Positions 5,032-24,938 of a stretch of 64,000 nucleotides of DNA are shown piece by piece (position 1 is the first letter of the stretch; each line of letters opens with the position of its first letter). This DNA comes from Planctomycetota bacterium (lineage in GTDB: Bacteria; Planctomycetota; Phycisphaerae; Phycisphaerales; UBA1924), in assembly GCA_039819165.1 (NCBI GenBank), contig JBCBSM010000001.1, positions 2,046,001 to 2,110,000 on the forward strand, written 5' to 3'. Position numbers and translations under genes: made by a program. The notes under the pieces were generated by a model. It saw nothing but the letters and a program-made list of their open reading frames with translations. It did not search any database and had not been told where the DNA came from.

Positions 5032-6222
5032 ATGCGGATCATGGTTGCAGTCTTGTGCGGTAGTGCATCTACAGCCGTATGCCAACCCATCGGAGCGATG
5101 TACGAGATCGAAGTGCTGGGTGATGATCCCAACTGGGATACTGGCTCGATCTCGTTTGATATCAATGACGCTGGTGCCGTTGTTGGACGCGGCTCGACGG
5201 GTGGCTGCGGCGTGGCATGGATATGGACGCCGAGCGGCGGGTTTCAGCCGTTTGGAGTGTGCAGCTGGACCGAAGGACTAGACGCTACCGGGGTCGCAGC
5301 CGGCGCCTTTGGCCGACCAGGCCTGGCTGCGGTGCTGGCGCCGGGTTCGAGCGATTTTGTGCGACTTCCGGTGCCCATAGGCCTGAGGCTTAGCAATGGG
5401 CATGACATCAACGATGCCGGCACGGTTGTGGCCAATGGCCGGACGTCGGGCGGAGGAATCGACATCGGATACGCGTGGACACGTGGTCCTTCGGGCTACA
5501 ACCCCCCCGTTCAGTTGCCCCGCACCGGCGTCATCCCGTGGAAGATCAACAATGAGGGCACGATCATCGGTTGGACCACGGCCATCCCCCAGACGGGACT
5601 CGTCTGGCGTCAAACTGGCCCCGGGGTGTACGCGGACCAGCCCGAGGTGCTCCCCGATATCCCCGGCGGCACCGGCCGGCGAGAGCCTCGCGGGATCACC
5701 GATGGCGGCCTGATCGGTGGCTTTGCGGTCGAAGGAGCCACACTTCGCGCGGTGATCTGGGACGTCGATGGCCCGCACCTTCTGGATCAGGGGCCATTCT
5801 TAGCCAGCACGGTGAACGGCGTTGGAACGACCGAAGTCCTGGTCGGAGGCGTGCAGCACGCCGACGACGGCAACTACTGGGCAGCGCTCTGGGTCGATCG
5901 GCAACTTATCTCGCTGCGTGAGCGCATCATGGATGCCGAGGCGTGGCCGGGCGGGATCAGCGCTACCGCCGCCAATGCGGACGGGTGGGTCGCCGCATAT
6001 GGCACCAACGCCGATGGCCGGGTGCTGCCCATGGTGCTTCGCCCCCTGGGCTGCTCCATCGCCGACCTCGATCTCGATGGCGACCTCACCCTCTTCGACT
6101 TCCTCGCCTTCCAGAACCTCTTCGCCACGGGCGACCCCCTCGCCGATTTCGACGGCGACGGCGACCTCACCCTCTTCGATTTCCTCGCCTTCCAGAACGC
6201 CTTCGACGCCGGCTGCCCCTGA
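5032..6222 (+). CDS. Secreted HAF-repeat-like protein with a GC-type dockerin tag
   Basis: The 396-residue protein begins with a short signal peptide and has repeats around INDAGAVVGRG, INDAGTVVANG and INNEGTIIGWT, the pattern of HAF-type extracellular repeat proteins that form propeller-like folds. The tag at about 341-396 has two near-identical loops (DGDLTLFDFLAFQN) and ends Gly-Cys-Pro. The start is ATG 5032 with AGGAG seven bases upstream. The body (5032 to about 6050) uses clearly more A/T-ending codons than its neighbours, while the tag is host-like, which hints at an acquired body joined to a native tag. Function unknown. Confidence 0.85.
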   Translation: MRIMVAVLCGSASTAVCQPIGAMYEIEVLGDDPNWDTGSISFDINDAGAVVGRGSTGGCGVAWIWTPSGGFQPFGVCSWTEGLDATGVAAGAFGRPGLAAVLAPGSSDFVRLPVPIGLRLSNGHDINDAGTVVANGRTSGGGIDIGYAWTRGPSGYNPPVQLPRTGVIPWKINNEGTIIGWTTAIPQTGLVWRQTGPGVYADQPEVLPDIPGGTGRREPRGITDGGLIGGFAVEGATLRAVIWDVDGPHLLDQGPFLASTVNGVGTTEVLVGGVQHADDGNYWAALWVDRQLISLRERIMDAEAWPGGISATAANADGWVAAYGTNADGRVLPMVLRPLGCSIADLDLDGDLTLFDFLAFQNLFATGDPLADFDGDGDLTLFDFLAFQNAFDAGCP

Positions 6223-6300
6223 GCCGCAACACGGATCCACCAACCCACGTAGGGAGCCTCGGACACCCCGGCGGATCTGCCGCCTGCCAGGAGAGAGAGC

Positions 6301-7104
6301 ATGCCAACGACACGCAGCCCTTGGCGCACGCTCGCCTGCGTGCTCGTCGCCGCCGCCGCGGCCGCCGCCCAGGACACGCTCCTGCTCGACGACTTCGACG
6401 ACGACAACACCGACGAGCTGCTGGGCGACCAGGGGCTGCTGGCCATCTTCTTCGAGACGCAGCCGCTGCTCACGCAAGATGAGGACTTCGCGTCGACCGG
6501 CGACGTGGGGGCCGTGCTCTACGACGATCCCGACGCCGCCGACACGCTCGTCGCCGGCCAGTATCCCAACGACGCCGGCGCCGTGGGCGCGAGCCTCGGC
6601 CTCAGCTTCACGGACCTCGGCATCATCGGCTTCGAGTTCGAGCTCCGCAACGCGAGCGCGTCCTTCGTCTTCGGCCTCGGGCTCGAGGACGACGGCCCGT
6701 CGGGCACCGTCGAGCGCCGCGTCGCCGCCGCCGACATCGTCGTGCCCGCCGGCGACTCGGTGACCCGCACGCTGTTCACCGACGACGACTGGTTCCTCGA
6801 GCCCGGATTCGACTTCACCGAGATCCGCGCGATCTTCTACGGCCTCAACAACGAGCCGAGGCGGCCCGGCCGCCCGCGGCCCATCGACGCGCTCTCGGTG
6901 GAGTTCGTCGAGTTCCGCGCCATCCTCGCGGACCCATGCCCCGCCGACCTCGACGGCGACGGCGAACTCACCCTCTTCGACTTCCTCGCATTCCAGAACC
7001 TCTTCGACGCCGGCGACCCCATCGCCGACTTCGACGGCGACGGCAGCCTCACGCTCTTCGACTTCCTCGCCTTCCAGAACGCCTTCGCCGCCGGCTGCCC
7101 GTAG
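6301..7104 (+). CDS. Secreted acidic protein with a GC-type dockerin tag
   Basis: The 267-residue product has a signal peptide (ALA-rich, cleavage near AAAQ, residue 23). A mature acidic beta-rich domain follows (LLLDDFDDDNTDEL, ASLGLSFTDLGIIGFEFELRN), which may be a jelly-roll-like module. The tag at 213-267 has two perfect loops and ends Gly-Cys-Pro. AGGAGAGAGAG precedes the ATG. It follows the preceding tagged gene by 78 bases in the same direction, so the two may share a transcript. No enzymatic motif is visible. Confidence 0.85.
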   Translation: MPTTRSPWRTLACVLVAAAAAAAQDTLLLDDFDDDNTDELLGDQGLLAIFFETQPLLTQDEDFASTGDVGAVLYDDPDAADTLVAGQYPNDAGAVGASLGLSFTDLGIIGFEFELRNASASFVFGLGLEDDGPSGTVERRVAAADIVVPAGDSVTRTLFTDDDWFLEPGFDFTEIRAIFYGLNNEPRRPGRPRPIDALSVEFVEFRAILADPCPADLDGDGELTLFDFLAFQNLFDAGDPIADFDGDGSLTLFDFLAFQNAFAAGCP

Positions 7105-7281
7105 GCGGCCGCGGGGCGGACATCCGAGAATCCGTGGCCGCGGGGCCCCCGGCTCCCCCACAGCGCCCAGGTTCCGTTCGACTGCGGGCAATCCGCGCCG
7201 GCCGCGTGAGTACGCCCTGCCGGCGTCGCTCCTTATCGAAGGCCCCTACGTCGGGGGGCACGCCAGACAAGGAGCTCCACC

Positions 7282-8553
7282 GTGCGACACTCTCCCGCCA
7301 TCGCGTTCGCCCTCGCCGCCGGTCTCGCCTCGGCCGCCGCCGCCCAGGTCGTCAACATCCCGCCCGACTCGCTGCCGGCCGAGTCGTGGTTCGCCGCCAA
7401 TCCCGGGGCCACCGTCAACGTGCTCAGCGGCGGAAGCATGTTCCCCGATGCCGGCGGCGGCGCCTTCACCTTCAACGGCGCCACCGTCAACATCGAGGCC
7501 GGCGGCGGCGCCGGCTTCCCGACCATCGACCACTTCGTCGAGGACGTCACCTACAACCTCGACGGCGGCGAGCTCGTCCGCGTGAAGTTCGTCGGCGGCA
7601 CGGGCACCACCACGCTGAACATCATCGACGGCCAGACCCGCCGCGGCGTCTGGCTGCAGGGCAACACCACCTGCACCATGTCGGGCGGCGATGCCGGCCT
7701 CGTCGCCGGCGGCCAGGCCGCGATCATCATCGAGGACGACGCCAGCTTCACCATGACCGGCGGCACCATCGATACCTTCATCCTCGCGATCGATGACGCC
7801 ACCGTCAGCATCATCGACGGCACGATCGAGGGTGCCCTCCAGCTCGACGATCGCGCGACCGCCACCATCTCGGGCGGCTCGGTCGGCCGCAACGGCTTCA
7901 TGAAGACCATCGACAACCGCCTGACCATCACCGGCGGCACCATCGGCCGCGACTTCGTCGTCGAGAAGGGCGTCGTCGACATGTCGGGAGGCGCCATGGA
8001 CCGCAACTGCGCCATCCTCAACGGCGGCGGCGGCGTCGACCCCATCTTCAACATGACCGGCGGCGCCCTCGGCAGCGAGTTCCGCGCCTACGACGGCACC
8101 ATCAACGTCTCGGGCGGACTCATCGGCGACGCCTTCCGCCTCGGCCGCCCCACCGGCGACGGCTCGGGCGTCACCATGAACCTGCTGGTCAAATCCGCCA
8201 CGCTCGACGGCGTCGCCCTCGACCTCACCGAGACGCCCGCCACCATCGCCACCCGCGGCGGCGCCTTCCTCTCCTGCATCCTGCTCGACGACTCGCTCGT
8301 CGGCTTCCACCTCAACGAGGACCTCGTCTTCGGCGAGGACCGCTTCCGCGCCGCCGCCACCCTCACCATCGCCCTGGGCACCACCGCCTGCACGCCCGAC
8401 CTCGACGGCGACGGCGAGCTCACCATCTTCGACTTCCTCGAGTTCCAGAGCCTCTTCGCCACGGGCGATCTGGCCGCCGACCTCGACGGCGATGGCGTTC
8501 TAACCATCTTCGACTTCCTGGCCTTCCAGAGCGCCTTCGCCCTGGGCTGCTAG
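7282..8553 (+). CDS. Secreted beta-helix-like protein with a GC-type dockerin tag
   Basis: The 423-residue protein has a signal peptide (cleavage near AAAQ, residue 22) and many short imperfect repeats ending in SGG or TGG (TMSGGDAG, TMTGGTID, TISGGSVG, TITGGTIG, NVSGGLIG), each about 20 residues. This is the look of a right-handed beta-helix or solenoid. The tag at 370-423 ends Gly-Cys at the very C-terminus. The GTG start at 7282 is supported by AAGGAG nine bases upstream. Third of three tagged genes in a row on the plus strand. It is probably a surface or matrix component; no catalytic residues are recognised. Confidence 0.87.
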   Translation: MRHSPAIAFALAAGLASAAAAQVVNIPPDSLPAESWFAANPGATVNVLSGGSMFPDAGGGAFTFNGATVNIEAGGGAGFPTIDHFVEDVTYNLDGGELVRVKFVGGTGTTTLNIIDGQTRRGVWLQGNTTCTMSGGDAGLVAGGQAAIIIEDDASFTMTGGTIDTFILAIDDATVSIIDGTIEGALQLDDRATATISGGSVGRNGFMKTIDNRLTITGGTIGRDFVVEKGVVDMSGGAMDRNCAILNGGGGVDPIFNMTGGALGSEFRAYDGTINVSGGLIGDAFRLGRPTGDGSGVTMNLLVKSATLDGVALDLTETPATIATRGGAFLSCILLDDSLVGFHLNEDLVFGEDRFRAAATLTIALGTTACTPDLDGDGELTIFDFLEFQSLFATGDLAADLDGDGVLTIFDFLAFQSAFALGC

Positions 8554-11421: not shown

Positions 11422-13452
11422 ATGAACACTCAGAAGACCTTGGGCGCAGCCGCCCTGCTCGCCATGGCGGGCACCGCTCTCGGACAGACCGTTCTGTTCG
11501 ATTCCTCGTCGGCGACCTCCGGCCGCCTGGTTGCCCAGAACGCCGCCGCCGCTGCCGGCATCACGGTGGACACCGAGATCCTGGACGACTTCATTGCCCT
11601 CGACGCCGCCGCGGCCGATGCGGGCAACAACTTCTTCATCATCAACAACAGCTGCTGCTTCTTCGGTGCCGGCTACGCGGCCAGCATTGACGCCCGCGTC
11701 TCCGACGGCGCCATCGTCCACCAGACCTTCTGGAACATGGACGCCGAGCCCGGCCTGCAGGGCACCTTCGGCATCAGCGGCACGGTCGACTTCTTCGACC
11801 CCCGCGAGATCCACAACAACGCCGGCCACCCCTCGTGGGGCGGCATCCCGGGCCCCATCCTCCCGGATGGCTCGATCTTCTGGGCCGACAACGGCGATGA
11901 GCTGTCGACCACCACCGGCGAGGTCATCGCCACCCACGACAGCCCCGCCGGCCCCGGCGCCTCGGTGTTCAACGGCACCACGATCCACAACGGCTTCGAC
12001 TACGACAGCTTCTTCGAGGTCGACATCACCGACCTCATCACCGAGCAGCTCGGCTTCCTCGCCGGCGGCATCCCCAACACGATCGCCCTGAGCACCGACT
12101 CGACCTTCGGCGCGTCCACCGACGCCGCCAACAACCTGGGCCTCAGCTTCGATACGTTCGACTTCTCGACGATCGGCGCCGCCCTGGGCACCGGCCAGTA
12201 CAGCTTCGCCATCATCGACAACCCGGCCAGCACCTTCTCGGCCGCCGACGAGCTGGCCATCGACACCTTCATCGAAGACGGCAACCGCGCCCACTTCAGC
12301 TACTGGAACCTCGACGCCAGCCCGGCCCTCCAGGCCACCTTCGACGTCGACAGCACCGTCGAGTTCACGCTGCCGCGTGACGTCTTCGACAACGCCGGCC
12401 ACCCGTCGTGGGCCGGCGCCACCAGCCCGGTGACCACCACCGGCGTGGACGAGTGGGCCGACAACGGCGACGAGCTCACCAGCACCGCCGGCGAGGTCGT
12501 CTCGACCTTCGATAGCGCCGCCGGCGCCGGCGCCACCGTGGCCGGCAACGACAACCGCACCCTGGCCAACGGCTTCGAGTACGACAGCCTCGGCCTGGCC
12601 GGCGTCACCGATCTGCTCGAGTCGCAGATCGACTGGGTCCGCACCGCCGCGCCCCCGCCGCCGCCTCCGGGCTCGGCCGTCGTCCTGTTCGATTCGTCGT
12701 CGGCCACCTCGGGCCGCTTCATCGTCCAGAACGCCGCCGCCGCCGCCGGCGTCACCGTCGACCTCGAGATCCTCGACGACTTCATCGCCCTCGATGCCGC
12801 CGCGGCCGATCCCAGCAACGGCGTCTTCATCATCAACAACAGCTGCTGCTTCTTCGGCGGCGGCTACGCGGCCAGCATCGCCGACCGCGTCGCCGCGGGC
12901 GCCCGCGTCCACCAGACCTTCTGGAACATGGACGCCGAGCCCGGCCTGCAGGCCACCTTCGGCATCAGCGGCGCGGTCGACTTCTTCGACCCCCGCGAGG
13001 TCCACAACAACATCAGCCACCCGTCGTGGGGCAGCGTTGCCGGTCCGATCCTGCCGGATGGCTCGATCTTCTGGGCCGACAACGGTGACGAGCTCACGCC
13101 CGCCGCCGGCGGCACCGTGGTCTCGACGCACGACAGCACCGCCGGCCCGGGTGCCACGGTCGTCGCCAACGGCGATACCGAGACCACCCTGCACAACGGC
13201 TTCGACTACGACAGCTTCTTCGAGACCGACATGACCGATCTCATCACCGCCCAGCTCGAGTGGCTGCTCGACGGTGACACGGTCTGCCTGCCCGACATCG
13301 ACATGGACGGCGAGCTGACCATCTTCGACTTCCTCGCCTTCCAGAACCTCTTCGACATGGGCGACCTCGCCGCCGACTTCGACGGCGACGGCTTCCTCAC
13401 CATCTTCGACTTCCTCGAGTTCCAGAACCTCTTCGACATGGGCTGCCCGTAA
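11422..13452 (+). CDS. Secreted triplicated-domain protein with a GC-type dockerin tag
   Basis: The 676-residue protein has a signal peptide (residues 1-22), three tandem domains of about 190 residues (about 23-213, 221-405 and 419-615), a poly-Pro linker (PPPPPPPGS) before the third, and the tag at 622-676. Domains 1 and 3 are nearly identical even in DNA and share IINNSCCFFG, HQTFWNMDAEPGLQ and HPSWG. Domain 2 is diverged and lacks the double Cys. The strand-helix pattern and the HPSW loop resemble a flavodoxin-like or ThuA/glutamine-amidotransferase-like fold, which is inference. A strong terminator follows at 13497. Function unknown. Confidence 0.88.
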   Translation: MNTQKTLGAAALLAMAGTALGQTVLFDSSSATSGRLVAQNAAAAAGITVDTEILDDFIALDAAAADAGNNFFIINNSCCFFGAGYAASIDARVSDGAIVHQTFWNMDAEPGLQGTFGISGTVDFFDPREIHNNAGHPSWGGIPGPILPDGSIFWADNGDELSTTTGEVIATHDSPAGPGASVFNGTTIHNGFDYDSFFEVDITDLITEQLGFLAGGIPNTIALSTDSTFGASTDAANNLGLSFDTFDFSTIGAALGTGQYSFAIIDNPASTFSAADELAIDTFIEDGNRAHFSYWNLDASPALQATFDVDSTVEFTLPRDVFDNAGHPSWAGATSPVTTTGVDEWADNGDELTSTAGEVVSTFDSAAGAGATVAGNDNRTLANGFEYDSLGLAGVTDLLESQIDWVRTAAPPPPPPGSAVVLFDSSSATSGRFIVQNAAAAAGVTVDLEILDDFIALDAAAADPSNGVFIINNSCCFFGGGYAASIADRVAAGARVHQTFWNMDAEPGLQATFGISGAVDFFDPREVHNNISHPSWGSVAGPILPDGSIFWADNGDELTPAAGGTVVSTHDSTAGPGATVVANGDTETTLHNGFDYDSFFETDMTDLITAQLEWLLDGDTVCLPDIDMDGELTIFDFLAFQNLFDMGDLAADFDGDGFLTIFDFLEFQNLFDMGCP

Positions 13453-14962: not shown

Positions 14963-15283
14963 CTAGACGCGCTCGGCCTCGAGCGGCTCGTCCGCCGACC
15001 CCCGCGCCTGCTCCCGCGCTGGTCCCCGCGAGGGCACCAGCGCCCGCAGCAGCCCCGCGATCTCCCGCTGGCTGGCCTCCAGCAGCGTCAGCGCCCGCGT
15101 GTTGGCCTCCACCAGCGCGAACAACGCCGCCGCCGACTCCCGCTCCGCAGACAGCCGCCGGTGCGCATCCTCGATCTGCCGCTCCCGCGCCGTCGCCGCC
15201 CGCCGCTCGGTCAGCCACATCCACGCGATCATCCCCGCCATGCCGAACTGCGCCACGATCGTCGCAACCTCGATCTGCTGCAT
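14963..15283 (-). CDS. Small membrane protein at the end of the virion-gene run
   Basis: The 106-residue protein has one N-terminal transmembrane segment (VATIVAQFGMAGMIAWMWL) followed by an Arg/Glu/Ala-rich coiled coil. This topology is common for small proteins encoded near phage tail or lysis genes. It starts four bases after the stop of the preceding virion-like gene, with GGGGTGAGG upstream. A holin, spanin-like or membrane-tether role is possible but unsupported by any specific motif. Confidence 0.7.
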   Translation of the reverse strand: MQQIEVATIVAQFGMAGMIAWMWLTERRAATARERQIEDAHRRLSAERESAAALFALVEANTRALTLLEASQREIAGLLRALVPSRGPAREQARGSADEPLEAERV

Positions 15284-15286
15284 GCC

Positions 15287-15670
15287 TCACCCCGCGCGGA
15301 ACACCGCCTCGTACCCGATCGTCCACCGCCGCCCGCGGTCCACCGGCCCCAGCTCGCGGTAGCCCACCAGCTCCATGTCCGCCCACTGCTGCCCACCGTG
15401 ATCCTCCAGCGTGCCGCTCGTCGGCGAGGCCGTTAGCAAACCCGTGATCGCATCCCGCAGCAACCACAACGCCGACTCGCTCGCCGCCACCAGCCGCCCG
15501 CGCACCGCGATCGACAGCGGCATCAAACCAAGCTGGATCCACTGCGGGACCGGCTGGCCCTGCTGCCCCAGCACCGTGCCCGGCGGCAGCTCCGCCTGCC
15601 CCTGCTCGAGCACCACGAAGCGGTGCGGGCCCGAACCGAACAAGTCCGTCGATGCAAATGCGCTCGCCAT
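15287..15670 (-). CDS. Virion-like structural protein (tail or connector type)
   Basis: The 127-residue product is beta-rich and ends in a pattern often seen in small phage tail or connector proteins (LEDHGGQQWADMELVGY, then DRGRRWTIGYEAVFRAG). It has no signal peptide or membrane segment. It begins 12 bases after the upstream gene stop and has GGGGGCGGCGG before the ATG. The family is not recognised with confidence; the phage assignment rests mostly on position in the portal-capsid operon. Confidence 0.65.
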   Translation of the reverse strand: MASAFASTDLFGSGPHRFVVLEQGQAELPPGTVLGQQGQPVPQWIQLGLMPLSIAVRGRLVAASESALWLLRDAITGLLTASPTSGTLEDHGGQQWADMELVGYRELGPVDRGRRWTIGYEAVFRAG

Positions 15671-15682
15671 CCGCCGCCCCCT

Positions 15683-16108
15683 TTACGCCCCGCGGTCGCC
15701 GTCTTCGCCGCTGGTTACCTCGATCGGATCGGCCGCGCCCCCATCCGACAGCGCCACCATCCGCCACCGCCGCTGCGCCCGAGACCCCGGCTCCACGTCG
15801 TACCGCGCCTCGAGCACCACCACCGAGGCCTCCACCCGCCTCCGCCCGCCGCTGCCCGCCACCGGCGCCGTGAAGAACCGCAGCGTGCCCTCGTCCCCGG
15901 GCGCGGCACCCTCCAGCGAATCCCGCGCGATGTCGGCCACCACCTCGATCTCCACCCGCTGCTCGGGCACGTCCGCGAAGATCGGGAACGCACCCTCGTC
16001 GCCCCACTCGACCAGCGATCGCGCGGCCGACCGCTGCACCACCACCCGCCGCACGCCCTCGATCGTCGTGCCCAGCAGCGATACCCATTCGGGGTTCAGC
16101 ACCAGCAT
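15683..16108 (-). CDS. Virion-like structural protein (possible tail-tube or neck protein)
   Basis: The 141-residue protein is beta-rich, with a sequence style of phage tail-tube or head-closure proteins (VSLLGTTIEGVRRVVVQRS, AAPGDEGTLRFFTAP, RRVEASVVVLEARYDV). GGAGG lies eight bases before the ATG. It follows the 211-residue gene by 31 bases. Assignment to a specific phage family would need a profile search; the operon position downstream of the capsid gene supports a virion role. Confidence 0.65.
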   Translation of the reverse strand: MLVLNPEWVSLLGTTIEGVRRVVVQRSAARSLVEWGDEGAFPIFADVPEQRVEIEVVADIARDSLEGAAPGDEGTLRFFTAPVAGSGGRRRVEASVVVLEARYDVEPGSRAQRRWRMVALSDGGAADPIEVTSGEDGDRGA

Positions 16109-16139
16109 GACACCAACCTCCTCCGCCAGCGCATCACAA

Positions 16140-16775
16140 CTAGCCCCGCACCAGCTGCACGACCCCCGGCCGCCGCGTCGCGTCGGCGATGCCGTCGCCG
16201 TCCACGTCCAGCCGCACCGCCAGCACCCGCTGCGCCCGCGAGAACATCTCCCGGTACATCACCGCACGAGCGCCGATCGCCGAACTCGGGCCGGCCAGCG
16301 CCGATGCCGAGGCGTACACCAGGTGCAACGCACCGAGCGCCTCGACGTTGGCGAGCGCACCGGCCGACTCGGCCACCACCGCTGCCTCGCCCGGGCCCTC
16401 CGGGTCGTCCAGCCCCAGCATCGCCATGATCTGGGCGTGCACCAACGCGATCTGCGGCGCGAACGACACCAGCGTGAACGATGCATTCGATGCCGGCGCG
16501 GGCGGCAGCGACGCGTCGTCGACGCTCGCGCGAAGCCGCGAGAGCCCCAGCTCCGTCGCTGACGCCACCGCCGTGATCTCGTATGGCACGCCGTTAAACA
16601 CGATCACGCCGCCCGCCGCCGCGCCCGCGACATCGAAGCCCGCGTCCACACTCGATGCGACCAGCGTCGTGCCCGAGACCGTCGCGATCCCGCTGGCCAG
16701 CCGCCGACCCGCCCACAACGCGTCGGTGAACGCGTGCGGCTCCAGATACAGAACATCCCGGTCCTGCGCAAACAT
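16140..16775 (-). CDS. Head-tail connector-like protein with an EF-hand-like loop
   Basis: The 211-residue protein sits directly after the capsid gene, where phages usually encode the head-completion protein. Its N-terminus (MFAQDRDVLYLEP) and the mixed beta then helical layout fit such a role. Near the C-terminus it carries VRLDVDGDGIADATRR, a calcium-loop-like DxDGDGxAD motif. GGAGG lies four bases before the ATG. Function as a connector is inferred from gene order rather than from a recognised domain. Confidence 0.68.
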   Translation of the reverse strand: MFAQDRDVLYLEPHAFTDALWAGRRLASGIATVSGTTLVASSVDAGFDVAGAAAGGVIVFNGVPYEITAVASATELGLSRLRASVDDASLPPAPASNASFTLVSFAPQIALVHAQIMAMLGLDDPEGPGEAAVVAESAGALANVEALGALHLVYASASALAGPSSAIGARAVMYREMFSRAQRVLAVRLDVDGDGIADATRRPGVVQLVRG

Positions 16776-16841
16776 GCAGCCTCCAATCCGGCCCCGCTCG
16801 GTCTCGCATCCACTCGATCCGACGCTCCCGCGTCCAAACCC

Positions 16842-16865
16842 GCGGACGGGCTCTCACCCGTCCGC
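16842..16865. other. Hairpin between capsid and connector genes
   Basis: A perfect 9-bp stem GCGGACGGG/CCCGTCCGC with a 6-base loop lies in the 149-base gap downstream of the capsid gene on its strand. No T-tract follows. It could partially terminate or stabilise the capsid message. Confidence 0.45.
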
Positions 16866-16924
16866 GAGCCGACGACCCCGCCCCCACACGAAGGGCCGCC
16901 GTGCCCGCCGCAACACCCAGCGAC

Positions 16925-18103
16925 TCAGCTCGTCGCCAGCGCCGTGATCATCCCGTGCGCGTTCTCGTTGCGCAGCTCCAGCGTGTACTCGCCGATCACC
17001 TGGCCCATCGCCGCGTCGCCCGTCGATGCCAACGGCTTGAACTGGAACTGCCGGCCCTCCAGCGGCATCACCTCGATCCGCGACGAATCCAGCAGCAGGA
17101 TCGAGTCCGAAGGCATCCACCGCGACAGCACCACGCGGCACACGCCGAAGTCGCTCTCGTACACGCTCACCAAGTCGCTGAACCGATCGTCATCCGGCCC
17201 GTATCGCCGCGACGAGCTCACGAAGCCGTTGATCCGTCGCTTCTGCACGCCGTTGCACACGATGGTGTCGATCGGGCCCGACGCCTGCTCCCACACCTCG
17301 CGCAGCGCGGCGTTCAGCACCGCCTCGTTCAGCTCGTCGGAGCCCACCCCGCCACCGCCCGGAATGGGACCAGCCCCCGGCTCGAAGATGTTCGTCTCCA
17401 GCCCGTGGATGATGCCGTTCATCGATCGGCGGACACTGCTGCCGCCCTCGGGCGAGCTCGCCGGCGCCACGCCATTGATGACGCAGTTCTCCAGATCCCG
17501 CAGCAGCTCACGCATCCGCTCCTGCTTCTGGTAGTCCAGCTCGTCCTCGATGCCGTGCGCCCGCGCCGCCTGCATCGAGCCGCTCACCTCCACCGTCGAG
17601 GTGAAGATCTGCGTGTAGTTCTGGCGTCGTACGCGATTGGTGAAGCGAGCCTCGGGCGCGTCGGCGCCCTCGAGCGCCGCGTTGCCCAGGATCGTCAGCA
17701 CCATGCCCGCCGCCAGCGTCACCGACGACGTCCCGCCGTACGCACGCACCACCGACAGCGTCTCGGTCATCGGATCGATCGAGGTCACCAGCAGCACCTC
17801 GGGGCCATCGCCGGGCCGAAGCAGATCGCCGATGCGAAACCGGCTGCTGTCGTCCACCTGCACCGTGTCGTCGGTCTCGGGCGACGGCGAGAACGACTGC
17901 GACGCCAGCGTCCCCGTATTGGGCAGCAGCTCGTCCTCCACCCACTCGTGCACCGTGCTCGCCGCCGTCCGCCGCGGATCACCCAGGTGGTCCAGCAGCG
18001 GCGTCTCGTAGGGACTCACGATCCCGATGATGTCCGACACGTCCTCGACCAGCTCGGGCAATGCCGAGCCCGCCGAAAAGGTCGCCTTCCCCGTAAACGT
18101 CAT
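16925..18103 (-). CDS. Major capsid protein, SU10/DUF5309-like
   Basis: The 392-residue protein resembles the HK97-fold capsid proteins grouped as SU10-type (DUF5309). It has an N-terminal segment DIIGIVSPYETPLLDHLGD, the central NRVRRQNYTQIFTSTVEVSGSMQ and QKQERMRELLRDLENCVING, and a C-terminal part DFGVCRVVLSRWMPSDSILLLD ending ELRNENAHGMITAL. No signal peptide is present. AAGGAG precedes the ATG by six bases, a strong site fitting high expression. Scaffold-like and portal genes lie directly upstream, which is the canonical phage order. GC content is host-like and the frame is intact, so it is not visibly decaying. Confidence 0.86.
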   Translation of the reverse strand: MTFTGKATFSAGSALPELVEDVSDIIGIVSPYETPLLDHLGDPRRTAASTVHEWVEDELLPNTGTLASQSFSPSPETDDTVQVDDSSRFRIGDLLRPGDGPEVLLVTSIDPMTETLSVVRAYGGTSSVTLAAGMVLTILGNAALEGADAPEARFTNRVRRQNYTQIFTSTVEVSGSMQAARAHGIEDELDYQKQERMRELLRDLENCVINGVAPASSPEGGSSVRRSMNGIIHGLETNIFEPGAGPIPGGGGVGSDELNEAVLNAALREVWEQASGPIDTIVCNGVQKRRINGFVSSSRRYGPDDDRFSDLVSVYESDFGVCRVVLSRWMPSDSILLLDSSRIEVMPLEGRQFQFKPLASTGDAAMGQVIGEYTLELRNENAHGMITALATS

Positions 18104-18177
18104 GCGCTACTCCTTTGCGGCTTCCCGCCGCGCTTCCATCCCTCGCACCGCCGCGGGGGCCGCTCCGATCCTCGTGC

Positions 18178-18684
18178 TCAGCCGCCCCGTCGCAGCCGCA
18201 GGTACCGCATCAACGCCCGTCGATCGCCCGTCGACCGCGCCTCGCTCCGCGCCCGATCCAGCCGCGCCCCGCCGTGCGAGCCCTGCGAGGGGTGCATCGG
18301 GCTCACCGCCGATGCCCGTGCGCCCGACGCCCGGAACAGCGCAGGTCGCTCCCGTCGCAGCACCGCGATCACCCGCTCGGCCCCGATGCTCGCGTTGGCC
18401 TCCATCCGCGCCTCGACGAGCATCGCCAGCGATTCGCCGTCGATCGCGCCCGAGGATGCCACCGCCCGGTCGATCGCGCTCCGCCGCTCCAGCTTCTCGA
18501 GCTTGCCGCGGTGCTCGTGCAGTTCCGCCTCGCGTTCGGCCAGCTGCTCTGCGAGCTGGTCGGCCAGCCGATCCCGCTGACGCACCGCGTCCTCGTTCCG
18601 CGACGCATCGTCGTGCGCCTCCGCGTCGATCTCGATCCGCTCCCGATCCAGGTCCGCCTCGTTCGTGGATCCCTGCTGCGTCAT
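18178..18684 (-). CDS. Capsid scaffolding-like protein
   Basis: The 168-residue protein is highly charged. It has a long predicted coiled coil (DRLADQLAEQLAEREAELHE, then GKLEKLERRSAIDRAV) and an Arg-rich C-terminus (RRALMRYLRLRRGG). This fits an internal scaffold that guides capsid assembly. Its position between portal and capsid genes is the usual one. GGAGG is five bases upstream of the ATG. No protease gene is visible, so whether it is cleaved is unknown. The call rests on architecture and location. Confidence 0.7.
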   Translation of the reverse strand: MTQQGSTNEADLDRERIEIDAEAHDDASRNEDAVRQRDRLADQLAEQLAEREAELHEHRGKLEKLERRSAIDRAVASSGAIDGESLAMLVEARMEANASIGAERVIAVLRRERPALFRASGARASAVSPMHPSQGSHGGARLDRARSEARSTGDRRALMRYLRLRRGG

Positions 18685-18812
18685 GCCAGCCTCCGTTTCG
18701 TGTGCTCCGCGAGCCGACCGCGCGCGCGGTCCCTCCCGCCCCTGCCGCTCGCCATCTCACCTGTGTGTGCCGCAAACCGGCCCACCACGACCATCCCGCC
18801 GGTGGCCCGCCG

Positions 18813-20258
18813 CTAGCCTGCCCGCGGCTCGGGCTCGTAGCCCAGCTCCGCGATCACCCGCTCGCGATCGATGCCCAGCTCGCTCTTGCGGCGGGCCGCC
18901 ACGAGCTGCTCGTTCTCGTCGAAGCCCACCGGGTCGGGCCACGCCACGTGCAGCCGCCGGTCCTTCGGATCGCTCGCCAGCACGCCCGCGCGATCGAGCG
19001 CCTCGAGGATCAGCCCCGACATCCGCTCGATGCCCGCGCCGTACCCCACACGCTTGCGGCGCGTCTTGCTGAGCAAACCCAGCAGCGTGACCCGCAGCGC
19101 GTTGCCGCTCGACAGGTTGCCGATCTTCGCCCGCACGACGCCCGCGGCCACCGGCGGCACGCCCGACGCCTTGTCCAGCGCCTCGCGCACGTCCTCGACG
19201 TGCCGCGTCTCGCTGGGCGAGTCCGCGTCGCCGCCGAAGGCCTCGACCTCGGCGTCGGGGTTGTCCGTCGACAGGATCCGCCCCGGACCGATGCGGGCCT
19301 GATCGAACCCCTCGATGCCCTTGGCCAGGTACATCTTGAAGCTCTGCATGGTCACGCGGGCCGCCCGATCGCTCAGCCGCGTGTTCAGCTCGTCCTGCAG
19401 CGGGATCAGCGGCTCGACCTCGCTCAGCCCCGGATAGCACAGCGGCTGCGCCAGGTTCTGGATGTGCACCACCGGCACCCGGCCCGGTGCACAGCGGTTG
19501 GGGCCCTGCTCGATCAGCCGCCCGTCGACGTACAGCTGCCGCCACGCGCCGCTGAACACCTCCGTCACCCGCTCCATCGCTAGCTGCTCGGTGCGGCGTT
19601 CGTCCTCCAGCCGGCTCGTCCGCCGCGCGAAATCGATCGCGTAGGCATCCAGACGCCGGTAGTCCGAGGGATCCACGATCGGCACGCCGCGCGCCGGATC
19701 GATCGCCTCGACCCGGATCGCCTCGGCCAGCACCTCGGCGGGCAGCTCGAGCAACCCATCGAGATCGCTCGCCATCGCCGTCAATCGCTCGACGTCGCAC
19801 CGCAGCAGCAGATCGACGTGGCCGTAGACGTGCCCGAGCAGCAGGGCGTCGTGCAGCAGGCCCAGCCCGCCCGAGGCCTCCCACACCGCGTCCAGCGCCG
19901 CCTCGATCCGCCGCCGCTCACCCACCGTGCCCGCCTGCGACAGCAGCACCAGCGGCTCGGGCAGCATGAAGTCCACCATCGCGTGGATCCGCCAGGCGAT
20001 GTCGTTCTCGATGACCGCCTCGTTCGCCGCCGCCTCCACCATGCGGTCGTCCGACCACGGATCCCACACGCCCCGCAGCCGCGGCGGCAGCCCGGCCTTC
20101 TGCGGCGCATCGCCGCCGGGATGCGCAGGCTCGTTGCGGTAGTAGCCCCACAGCCAGTGCAGCCGGGGGATGACGTCGCGCTCGTGCTCGGCCAGCAGCA
20201 CCTCCAGTGCTCCGGCCGACAACGAGATGTCCGTGAATGCATCGAGCTGGAACGCCAC
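18813..20258 (-). CDS. Phage-type portal protein
   Basis: The 481-residue protein matches the general pattern of portal proteins of the SPP1 gp6 class: an N-terminal helical region with WRIHAMVDFMLPEPLVL, the central RVPVVHIQNLAQPLCYPGLS, EVEPLIPLQDELNTRLSDRA, and the long helix region near MYLAKGIEGF. In phages it forms the ring through which DNA enters the head. GTG 20258 is chosen because AGGAGG lies six bases upstream; an earlier GTG at 20297 has no such site. No terminase gene lies upstream. It is the first gene of the virion-like run, and the frame is intact. Confidence 0.85.
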   Translation of the reverse strand: MAFQLDAFTDISLSAGALEVLLAEHERDVIPRLHWLWGYYRNEPAHPGGDAPQKAGLPPRLRGVWDPWSDDRMVEAAANEAVIENDIAWRIHAMVDFMLPEPLVLLSQAGTVGERRRIEAALDAVWEASGGLGLLHDALLLGHVYGHVDLLLRCDVERLTAMASDLDGLLELPAEVLAEAIRVEAIDPARGVPIVDPSDYRRLDAYAIDFARRTSRLEDERRTEQLAMERVTEVFSGAWRQLYVDGRLIEQGPNRCAPGRVPVVHIQNLAQPLCYPGLSEVEPLIPLQDELNTRLSDRAARVTMQSFKMYLAKGIEGFDQARIGPGRILSTDNPDAEVEAFGGDADSPSETRHVEDVREALDKASGVPPVAAGVVRAKIGNLSSGNALRVTLLGLLSKTRRKRVGYGAGIERMSGLILEALDRAGVLASDPKDRRLHVAWPDPVGFDENEQLVAARRKSELGIDRERVIAELGYEPEPRAG

Positions 20259-20363
20259 GGCGGGCCTCCTCCGGTTGCTGCGAGTCCCGTCCCACACGGG
20301 CCCTCACCCAACGGGAGGCCGGACACTTCCGCGCGCAACGGCACGCACGCCAGCAATCAAGTC

Positions 20364-24056: not shown

Positions 24057-24938
24057 TCAGCAGCCGGCGTCGAACTCGCTCTGGAACGCCAGGAAATCGA
24101 AGATCGTGAACGCGCCGTCGCCGTCGAAGTCGGCGCGGGCATCACCCCGGCCGAATGCGATCTGGAAGGCCAGGAAGTCGAAGACCGTGAGCCGGCCGTC
24201 CCCGTCCAGATCGGCGCGGCACGGCGCGGGGCCCAACCCCTGCGGCACGTCGCTCGTCGTGGCCCTTAGCGTCATGACGCCCGTCGACGCATCGACCTCC
24301 CACACCCGGCGACCCAGGTCGGTCATTACCAGCGTGCCATCCCGCTCGAATGCGATGCCGCCCGGCACGCTTCCGACGGTGGGCCTGCTCATGGGGATGG
24401 TCGCCAGCGGCGCGCCCGTCGCCGGGTCGATCACCAGCAGTTCGGGCACCGAGAACGGCGCCGCGCTCGTCACGCCGTAGAAGAGGCCGCTGCGCTGGTC
24501 GTAGTCCAGGCCGTAGAGCCGCGGCAGCGACGGTCCGCCGAGCGAGGTCGCCACGCCCGTCGCGGTGCTGACCGTCGCGAGGCGGGTGCCCAGCATGCCA
24601 TACAGCCGCCCGCCCGGGCCGAAGCTGATCGAGTCGCCCACGGTGCCGCCGATGTGCGTCGCGATCCCCGTCGCCGGGTCGACGCGGCTGAGATTCGCGT
24701 CGCCCGCCGGCGAGTTGTTGATCACGTAGATCGACCCGCCCGGGCTCACGGCCATGCTCACCGGCGTAACGTACCGCGCTGGGTCGGGGTTCAGCGGACC
24801 GATGACCGAGACGGTGGCACCGGTCGCGGTATCGAAGATGTACAGGCTGTCGGTGCCCGCATCGCAGGCATACATGCGGTCGGCCGACGCCAGGCCGGCG
24901 GCGGACAACAGGACGGCGGCGGTGCACGAACGGATCAT
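24057..24938 (-). CDS. Secreted beta-propeller-like protein with a GC-type dockerin tag
   Basis: The 293-residue protein has a signal peptide (cleavage near GLASA, residue 20) and repeats of the form SLYIFDTATGATVSVI, LSRVDPATGIATHIGG, LATVSTATGVATSLGG, LLVIDPATGAPLATIP and VWEVDASTGVMTL, giving a YVTN-like or NHL-like beta-propeller. The tag at 240-293 starts Cys and ends Gly-Cys. ATG 24938 is preferred over an in-frame upstream codon because AGGGGG lies eight bases before it and the signal peptide starts there. It is similar in style to the protein at 2249. Function unknown. Confidence 0.86.
   Translation of the reverse strand: MIRSCTAAVLLSAAGLASADRMYACDAGTDSLYIFDTATGATVSVIGPLNPDPARYVTPVSMAVSPGGSIYVINNSPAGDANLSRVDPATGIATHIGGTVGDSISFGPGGRLYGMLGTRLATVSTATGVATSLGGPSLPRLYGLDYDQRSGLFYGVTSAAPFSVPELLVIDPATGAPLATIPMSRPTVGSVPGGIAFERDGTLVMTDLGRRVWEVDASTGVMTLRATTSDVPQGLGPAPCRADLDGDGRLTVFDFLAFQIAFGRGDARADFDGDGAFTIFDFLAFQSEFDAGC

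Follow-up and report, generated by a model that had tools for sequence, protein, structure and literature searches.

A probable gene transfer agent of Planctomycetota, split into a head operon and a distant packaging locus, and a mobile element found in its capsid gene

We analysed a window of 64,000 nt (the whole stretch of DNA considered here) from a Planctomycetota bacterium of the order Phycisphaerales (UBA1924; assembly GCA_039819165.1, contig JBCBSM010000001.1, positions 2,046,001-2,110,000; genome G000). Positions 14963-20258 of this window are filled by seven minus-strand genes coding for a portal, a scaffold, an SU10-type major capsid protein (MCP) and four small proteins, g4 to g7. 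This module is very probably an operon encoding the head and mini-tail of a domesticated phage particle that packages DNA; it would belong to a Planctomycetota lineage of gene transfer agents (GTAs), split here into a head operon and a packaging and control operon 48 kb away. The features of the head locus are as follows.

18813..20258, minus strand: portal protein (Pfam SPP1_portal, E 1.6e-10; PHROG portal, 2.7e-18)
18178..18684, minus strand: scaffold protein (Pfam Phage_scaffold, E 8.8e-6, 26.2 bits, under the curated cut-off of 35)
16925..18103, minus strand: MCP of the SU10 type (Pfam SU10_MCP, E 3.3e-89; PHROG major head protein, 1.1e-74)
16140..16775, minus strand: g4, putative head-tail adaptor-like protein, assigned from position alone
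15683..16108, minus strand: g5, tail-tube fold (AlphaFold model, pLDDT 80.6, 14-row alignment)
15287..15670, minus strand: g6, Dit/baseplate-hub fold (AlphaFold model, pLDDT 85.9, 16-row alignment)
14963..15283, minus strand: g7, small conserved protein with an N-terminal hydrophobic stretch, possibly holin-like
20306..20324, minus strand: motif GTCCGGCCTCCCGTTGGGT, candidate promoter or activator site, conserved upstream of the portal

The Pfam and PHROG matches agreed with the initial annotation, which had read a portal, a scaffold-like protein and an SU10-type capsid in one minus-strand run. Its statements on intact frames and host-like composition also held: all seven frames are open, and the mean GC content and GC content at third codon positions of the module (0.719 and 0.914) are close to those of the other called genes of the window (0.714 and 0.930). 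The portal starts with a GTG at 20258, preceded by GGAGG, and this start is kept in the genus alignment. Among the small genes, g4 had no match in Pfam or PHROG, and g5 and g6 had none in Pfam. The best matches of the g5 model were tail-tube proteins (Foldseek best E 9e-4; VIA Z about 10, root-mean-square deviation (rmsd) 2.8-6.6 in the top rows), while baseplate-hub and Dit proteins headed the list for the g6 model (VIA Z 10.8 to 10.0), including the Dit of SPP1 (2x8k; Z 10.0, rmsd 3.1 over 115 residues). The tube and Dit folds are largely common and each match list holds both kinds, so that the assignment of g5 and g6 rests on rank and gene order. For g7, the only Pfam match was DUF5671 (E 0.087), and PHROG gave a family of unknown function (0.0029). 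We guess that it is holin-like from its size, its place and its N-terminal hydrophobic stretch; its hydropathy maximum of 1.58 decides nothing, since g4 reaches the same value. As the initial annotation had noted, the flanks are of housekeeping type: FabF follows the module, a cation-efflux gene and the GTPase Der precede it, and a class II tRNA synthetase is also found among the neighbours.

The terminase was located elsewhere on the chromosome. We found none beside the head module; the sole Terminase_6C gene of the genome, coding for the terminase large subunit (TerL), lies 48 kb from the MCP gene (G000:C1:2014651-2015115), and the TerL_ATPase profile PF03354 had no match in the genome. The whole-genome terminase search that had been proposed thus yielded a conserved gene, and the remark that neither terminase nor integrase adjoins the module was borne out, with no integrase in Pfam among the five neighbours of the head locus and eight of the terminase locus. 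The terminase locus consists of a divergent HTH-S24 gene followed by genes for a 142-aa protein with a sigma-70 region 4-like HTH, an ABC-type ATPase (weak match, 2e-6), an open GNAT-type frame (1e-5) and TerL; UvrC, prepilin-like, PD40 and DUF58/VWA-type genes are among its eight tested neighbours, two of which had no match. No certain small terminase subunit was found at this locus, the first gene of which encodes the 142-aa protein; in other families, a ParB-like protein (PHROG 2.1e-13) and the small protein f22 stand before TerL. The Walker A motif (R-G-G-G-K-T), the RCDE motif and aspartates 337, 391, 477 and 481 of TerL were invariant in 12 of 12 aligned homologues. The 297-aa HTH-S24 protein is of repressor type (HTH_3, 8e-7; Peptidase_S24, 1e-14), and its Ala173-Gly174, Ser212 (in a G-S-M context) and Lys250 were invariant in 11 of 11 homologues. 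We take this Ala-Gly/Ser/Lys layout to be that of the self-cleaving LexA/CI proteins, and the protein is predicted to be a self-cleaving repressor of this type. In another family of the class (f14, genome G108), the ABC, GNAT, TerL, portal, scaffold, MCP and g4 genes form one cluster. The split between head and packaging genes is therefore probably derived.

The two loci occur together well beyond the genus. In a sample of the order comprising 101 genomes (our own included, several of them fragmented drafts), the MCP was detected in 75 (two, G028 and G069, with fragments only) and TerL in 81 (three with weak matches, G085, G094 and G100); 70 genomes had both, five the MCP alone, 11 TerL alone and 15 neither (Fisher p 2e-7). 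All six other members of the genus and most of the family carry the module. In the class, 131 of 298 genomes had the MCP, under 17 family labels, and in the phylum 46 of 294 (20 of our own class, 22 strong matches elsewhere with E 1e-60 or better, and four weak ones). Named genome records yielded 275 loci encoding a relative, the best 80 of these 275 being mostly titled Phycisphaerales, Phycisphaeraceae, Phycisphaerae or Planctomycetota.

Gene order was compared over 68 loci with an MCP match, the window included, of which three with an incomplete MCP were excluded. The order portal-scaffold-MCP-g4-g5-g6-g7 was kept in all 65 remaining loci as far as the members were present; it was scored automatically in 62 and judged from match coordinates in three (L108, L109 and L120), and in five loci, where an interrupted MCP is represented by its right part only, the order upstream of it did not enter the score. 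Near the MCP we found the portal in 54 loci, the scaffold in 59, g4 in 64, g5 in 48, g6 in 52 and g7 in 45, counts partly lowered by contig ends and interrupted genes. Since the order is kept throughout, the module is not a chance assembly. Families f3, f5, f6 and several others have extra genes after g6, among them f34, f21 (PHROG tail collar, 6.9e-6) and f50.

A related arrangement was seen in another part of the phylum. In the f49 loci (L338, L334 and L339), the MCP is accompanied by a homologue of the scaffold (hhalign E 2.7e-6, probability 89%) and by a probable homologue of the portal (E 8.9e-5, probability 60%) that had no Pfam or PHROG match. The probable portal, scaffold, capsid and further genes of unknown function stand in one run, which adjoins the arginyl-tRNA synthetase gene argS in L338, and may be described, given its probable portal, as a host-embedded head module.

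The module appears to have been inherited with the host, with some exchange. Identity to our own protein was higher for the MCP than for Der in 64 of 65 genomes, with a tie in the remaining one, and it correlated with the identity of Der for both the MCP (Spearman 0.68, 65 genomes) and TerL (0.73, 55 genomes), genomes with partial matches being mostly left out of these comparisons. We obtained a quick maximum-likelihood tree of the MCP with 88 rows, 54 from genomes and 34 from 80 IMG/VR loci (36 of the 80 were entered, of which L232 and L233 had too short a match; L236-L280 except L257 were left out). All 54 genome rows fell into one clade of 57 (SH-aLRT 99), outside of which branched 31 of the 34 viral rows. 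The labels required 18 changes on this tree, against a minimum of 16 and a mean of 49 after shuffling. Families f5, f6, f20 and f23 were each not recovered as one clade and the support for f1 was 77 only, so that some exchange or weak resolution remains; to judge from these sequences, inheritance of the MCP largely follows the host families. Portal and MCP are under purifying selection, with dN/dS within the genus of 0.13-0.28 and 0.08-0.26, respectively, and pN/pS in G000-G003 of 0.333 and 0.290, compared with 0.335 for Der. Synteny and dN/dS in relatives, which the initial annotation had named as checks, thus spoke for a maintained module: neither relaxed selection on portal and MCP nor absence from close relatives, either of which it would have counted against the idea, was seen, although some relatives were without the genes or carried broken copies. 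Its suggestion of a GTA split over several loci is the one that the distant terminase locus, the six congeneric modules and the selection on portal and MCP favour.

How such a particle would work can be outlined from the types of its genes. DNA damage would stimulate, through RecA, self-cleavage of the HTH-S24 repressor, a candidate switch whose type makes the GTA probably SOS-inducible, and the packaging operon would be opened, possibly under joint control with the head operon. Portal, scaffold and MCP would assemble a procapsid. TerL, having no phage genome to choose, would pump headfuls of host DNA into it; packaging of host DNA is suggested because the terminase is intact and there is no phage genome to package. 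The adaptor, a tube ring and a Dit ring would then close a tail that is presumably very short, given these two folds and loci in which no tape measure was recognised; g7 may aid release, and the DNA would be transferred to other cells. If this is true, homology searches with known GTAs miss whole lineages, and Planctomycetota would gain a gene-exchange route of a sort that none of the papers searched lists for the phylum.

Several observations weigh against the split GTA. An MCP match was missing in 26 of the 101 genomes, and family f2 had the system in one of its 12 genomes. Damaged copies exist: the portal of G004 (L076), a member of the same genus with a single contig, is truncated, its match covering residues 318-489 only, while MCP and TerL are present, and the MCP reading contains an internal stop in G002 and G071, as it does in the class scan in G130 and in one piece in G165. 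Constraint is weaker on TerL than on Der (pN/pS 0.49-0.55) and weaker still on the accessory and small genes (pN/pS up to 0.89 for the ABC gene, dN/dS up to 0.81 for g7), these high ratios being inflated because the frames ran from stop to stop. Tape-measure, fibre and lysozyme genes were not recognised in our own loci; f21, which is fibre-like and occurs in other families, was found in 13 of the 101 genomes, none of them of our own family. A shared operator of the two loci was sought and abandoned, the two promoters having no common word of at least 11 bases in five genomes and sharing one low-complexity 10-mer in a single genome. Finally, some horizontal exchange has occurred, since two phage-like contigs, described below, carry an MCP inside the bacterial clade.

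These observations have to be set against what other origins would predict. A decaying or defective prophage, widespread by chance, would account for the phage type of the genes, the truncated portal and the stops in the MCP, and we regard it as quite unlikely: the module is nearly always a single close copy with its order kept in 65 of 65 loci, its MCP is more conserved than Der and evolves under purifying selection, the MCP tree follows host families to a large extent, and no integrase stands among the 13 tested neighbours. A temperate prophage would be a contiguous phage genome with an integrase, patchily distributed among relatives, and this is not what we found. The initial annotation had also considered a domesticated capsid or nanocompartment. 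A virus-derived, encapsulin-like compartment without DNA would fit a capsid gene in a chromosomal setting; it would be a shell without portal or terminase, whereas here the terminase is catalytically intact and is conserved together with portal, scaffold and tail folds, and we give this possibility almost no weight. Its further suggestion of a satellite is unsupported for the module itself, a satellite-like element being seen instead inside the MCP gene of other genomes.

Closer to a GTA would be a domesticated DNA-packaging particle with another use, for instance in killing, under stress, or in the export or repair of DNA. The same genes would serve it, our own family was found without a fibre, and the repressor is of self-cleaving type. 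The modelled tube and Dit folds suggest delivery, however, and the terminase residues are invariant, although both would also be compatible with such a use. We consider it improbable, if somewhat less so than the prophage. For the split GTA speak the intact phage-derived head and packaging genes, their largely vertical inheritance under purifying selection with some exchange, and their dispersal over two loci 48 kb apart with no integrase among the 13 neighbours put to Pfam. Of a putative delivery tail, the modelled tube and Dit folds were seen, with neither fibre nor tape measure recognised in our own loci.

GTAs are known from few lineages (PMC11841831, in the parts available). Those described in the accessible parts of PMC11841831, PMC12946183, PMC9953437, PMC9040852 and PMC10111431, taken jointly, come from alphaproteobacteria including Caulobacter, from Bartonella, Brachyspira, Desulfovibrio and Methanococcus, and GTA activity is reported in gut Oscillospiraceae and Ruminococcaceae. 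No paper listed on GTAs, capsids and prophages in Planctomycetota and Phycisphaerae describes such a GTA in its title or the start of its abstract, in a search that covered no bioRxiv preprints and few subscription papers. The Rhodobacter-type GTA of alphaproteobacteria (RcGTA) likewise has head and packaging genes that are inherited vertically within a class of hosts and lie at several loci (PMC11841831, in part). The module differs from it by its SU10-type capsid, its SPP1-type portal, the lack of a tape measure among the genes found, the HTH-S24 repressor, the ABC and GNAT genes and the host phylum; its origin is presumably independent, the two being set apart by features and not by sequence comparison. 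There is nonetheless a likeness between the g5 model and the tube of the GTA particle 6tba (chain 50; VIA Z 8.9, rmsd 7.0), which we take to be that of RcGTA. The GTAs of Bartonella, Brachyspira, Desulfovibrio and Methanococcus are likewise domesticated phages whose loci may be dispersed, and differ from the module in host phylum, as far as their description in the available part of PMC11841831 allows a comparison. A link to aster-like nanoparticles was dropped, as nothing in the part of PMC9040852 at hand bears on the module.

Phage relatives of the MCP are distant. The 151 annotated phage records with a match were all less than 60% identical, and the best 25 of the 151 reached 32.4% at most. 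Thirty IMG/VR contigs (L203-L232) carry an SU10-type MCP with an identity of 34-43%, which in the tree branches outside the bacterial clade; in 22 of the 30 a TerL match lies upstream on the same strand, about 3-10 kb off. These contigs are likely kin of the ancestor of the module. Three IMG/VR contigs (L201, L202 and L257) fell inside the bacterial clade. One of them, L257, looks chromosomal, with genes for HsdM, a radical SAM protein and a spore photoproduct lyase; next to its head module lies a Terminase_2 small-subunit gene (PF03592, 1.4e-26; 6276-6722). The other two are phage-like: L201 has a GTA-type MCP that is 60% identical (7023-8183) amid RecT, exonuclease and methyltransferase genes, with a terminase further on, and L202 one 54% identical (5970-7124) amid DnaB-type, replication and methyltransferase genes. 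Among the module genes, a scaffold-like gene at most accompanies the MCP in these two contigs, which look like phage captures of a host GTA capsid gene.

In other genomes the MCP gene itself is the target of an insertion. The MCP was in two pieces in six of the 75 genomes (G008, G010, G023, G041, G072 and G086), both pieces being free of internal stops in all six, and further interrupted MCPs were found in the class scan (G101 and G274) and in loci fetched later (G372, G373 and G390). This makes 11 genomes seen (element loci L035-L041, L295, L296, L304, L311 and L318), a number that does not come from a systematic survey. The MCP gene is broken near codon 57-61, or at codon 325 in G274 (L296), and the insert measures about 10-12 kb where both ends are on one contig, or about 7 kb in G101; the G072 locus is rearranged, with part of the MCP inverted, and only the two ends, on two contigs, were seen in G010. 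Typical genes of the insert encode a large serine recombinase, a HARE-HTH protein, an AAA_25 ATPase, a capsid fusion, a sigma-like protein and e20. The capsid fusion (Phage_capsid_4, 3e-40; Mu gpT-like, 2e-10) is unrelated to the GTA MCP. Its gene was present in nine inserts (G008, G023, G041, G072, G086, G274, G372, G373 and G390; in pieces in G041), absent from that of G101 and not found in G010. Neither our own profile models nor Pfam recovered a portal or terminase among the tested proteins of the element, 2.7-4.2 kb of the L035-L038 inserts being unassigned.

The insert ends carried CCCGTCTG in four of six left junctions and its mirror CAGACGGG in seven of eight right junctions, one of the eight being that of a G083 contig; such mirrored ends are presumably what is expected of serine-integrase sites. 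Between G008 and G086, which belong to two families, the recombinases were 93% and the element capsids 95% identical, as against 62% for the MCP pieces, from which we conclude that the element moves. Other inserts were more distant, with element capsids 54% (G023) and 61% (G072 and G372) identical. Close copies of the element capsid gene also occur at other places in genomes: the G008 protein had 14 further full-length matches of 91-99% identity, of which four belong to inserts already named or to the G083 contig; two copies (L301 and L307) had no match to a serine recombinase. The G083 contig (C204), in which MCP codons 56-96 stand beside the element, was rejected as an insertion of G083, its residues being equal to those of G086 and an intact MCP being present on C115, and is probably a contamination. 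All six insertion-bearing genomes of the 101-genome sample also have TerL, which in G010 lies in two reading frames.

Elements living in an MCP gene raise the question whether GTAs have parasites. We propose only tentatively, as a possibility that we hold to be rather unlikely, that the GTA lineage predates the families of a class and has its own parasite, the element being a satellite of a gene transfer agent. With its serine recombinase, its AAA_25 protein and its own Mu-gpT-like capsid fusion, the element would integrate into the GTA MCP gene, where the conserved codons HEWxED|xLLPN lie, and silence the GTA; it would then excise, swap the shell and leave through the portal and terminase of the GTA. 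In these genomes it does sit site-specifically inside a late gene of the supposed helper. The arrangement resembles that of helper-embedded phage-inducible chromosomal islands as described in the accessible part of PMC10111431, with the differences that the helper would be a GTA, that the recombinase is a serine recombinase and that most copies have their own capsid gene.

A separate prophage-like region of our genome (L320, G000:C1:712000-731900) encodes a lambda-type portal, a GpA-type terminase and a capsid fusion that shares 38% identity with the one in the MCP-inserted element. A 662-aa gene there could be a tape measure, a guess based on its size. We asked whether this region might supply tail genes and rejected the idea, as it has its own portal and GpA-type terminase.

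The motif GTCCGGCCTCCCGTTGGGT had a single match per genome in the seven genus genomes, before the portal in six of them; in G004 the sole match lies elsewhere, with one mismatch. CCGTTGGG was found within 70 bases of the portal start in six of 59 upstream regions, all of our own genus. The CTTGCAATTGTTTnCAA site had matches in five of the seven genomes (none in G005 and G006), located between the repressor and the packaging operon in G000, G003 and G004 and a few kb from TerL in G001 and G002, with one extra two-mismatch match in G003. From the match patterns of GTCCGGCCTCCCGTTGGGT and CTTGCAATTGTTTnCAA, no third member of a regulon was found in the genus genomes.

Proteins ending in two copies of a DGxxTIFDFLxFQ-like repeat recur in our genome, at positions 11422-13452 and 24057-24938 of the window and at 9382-10728 of L033.

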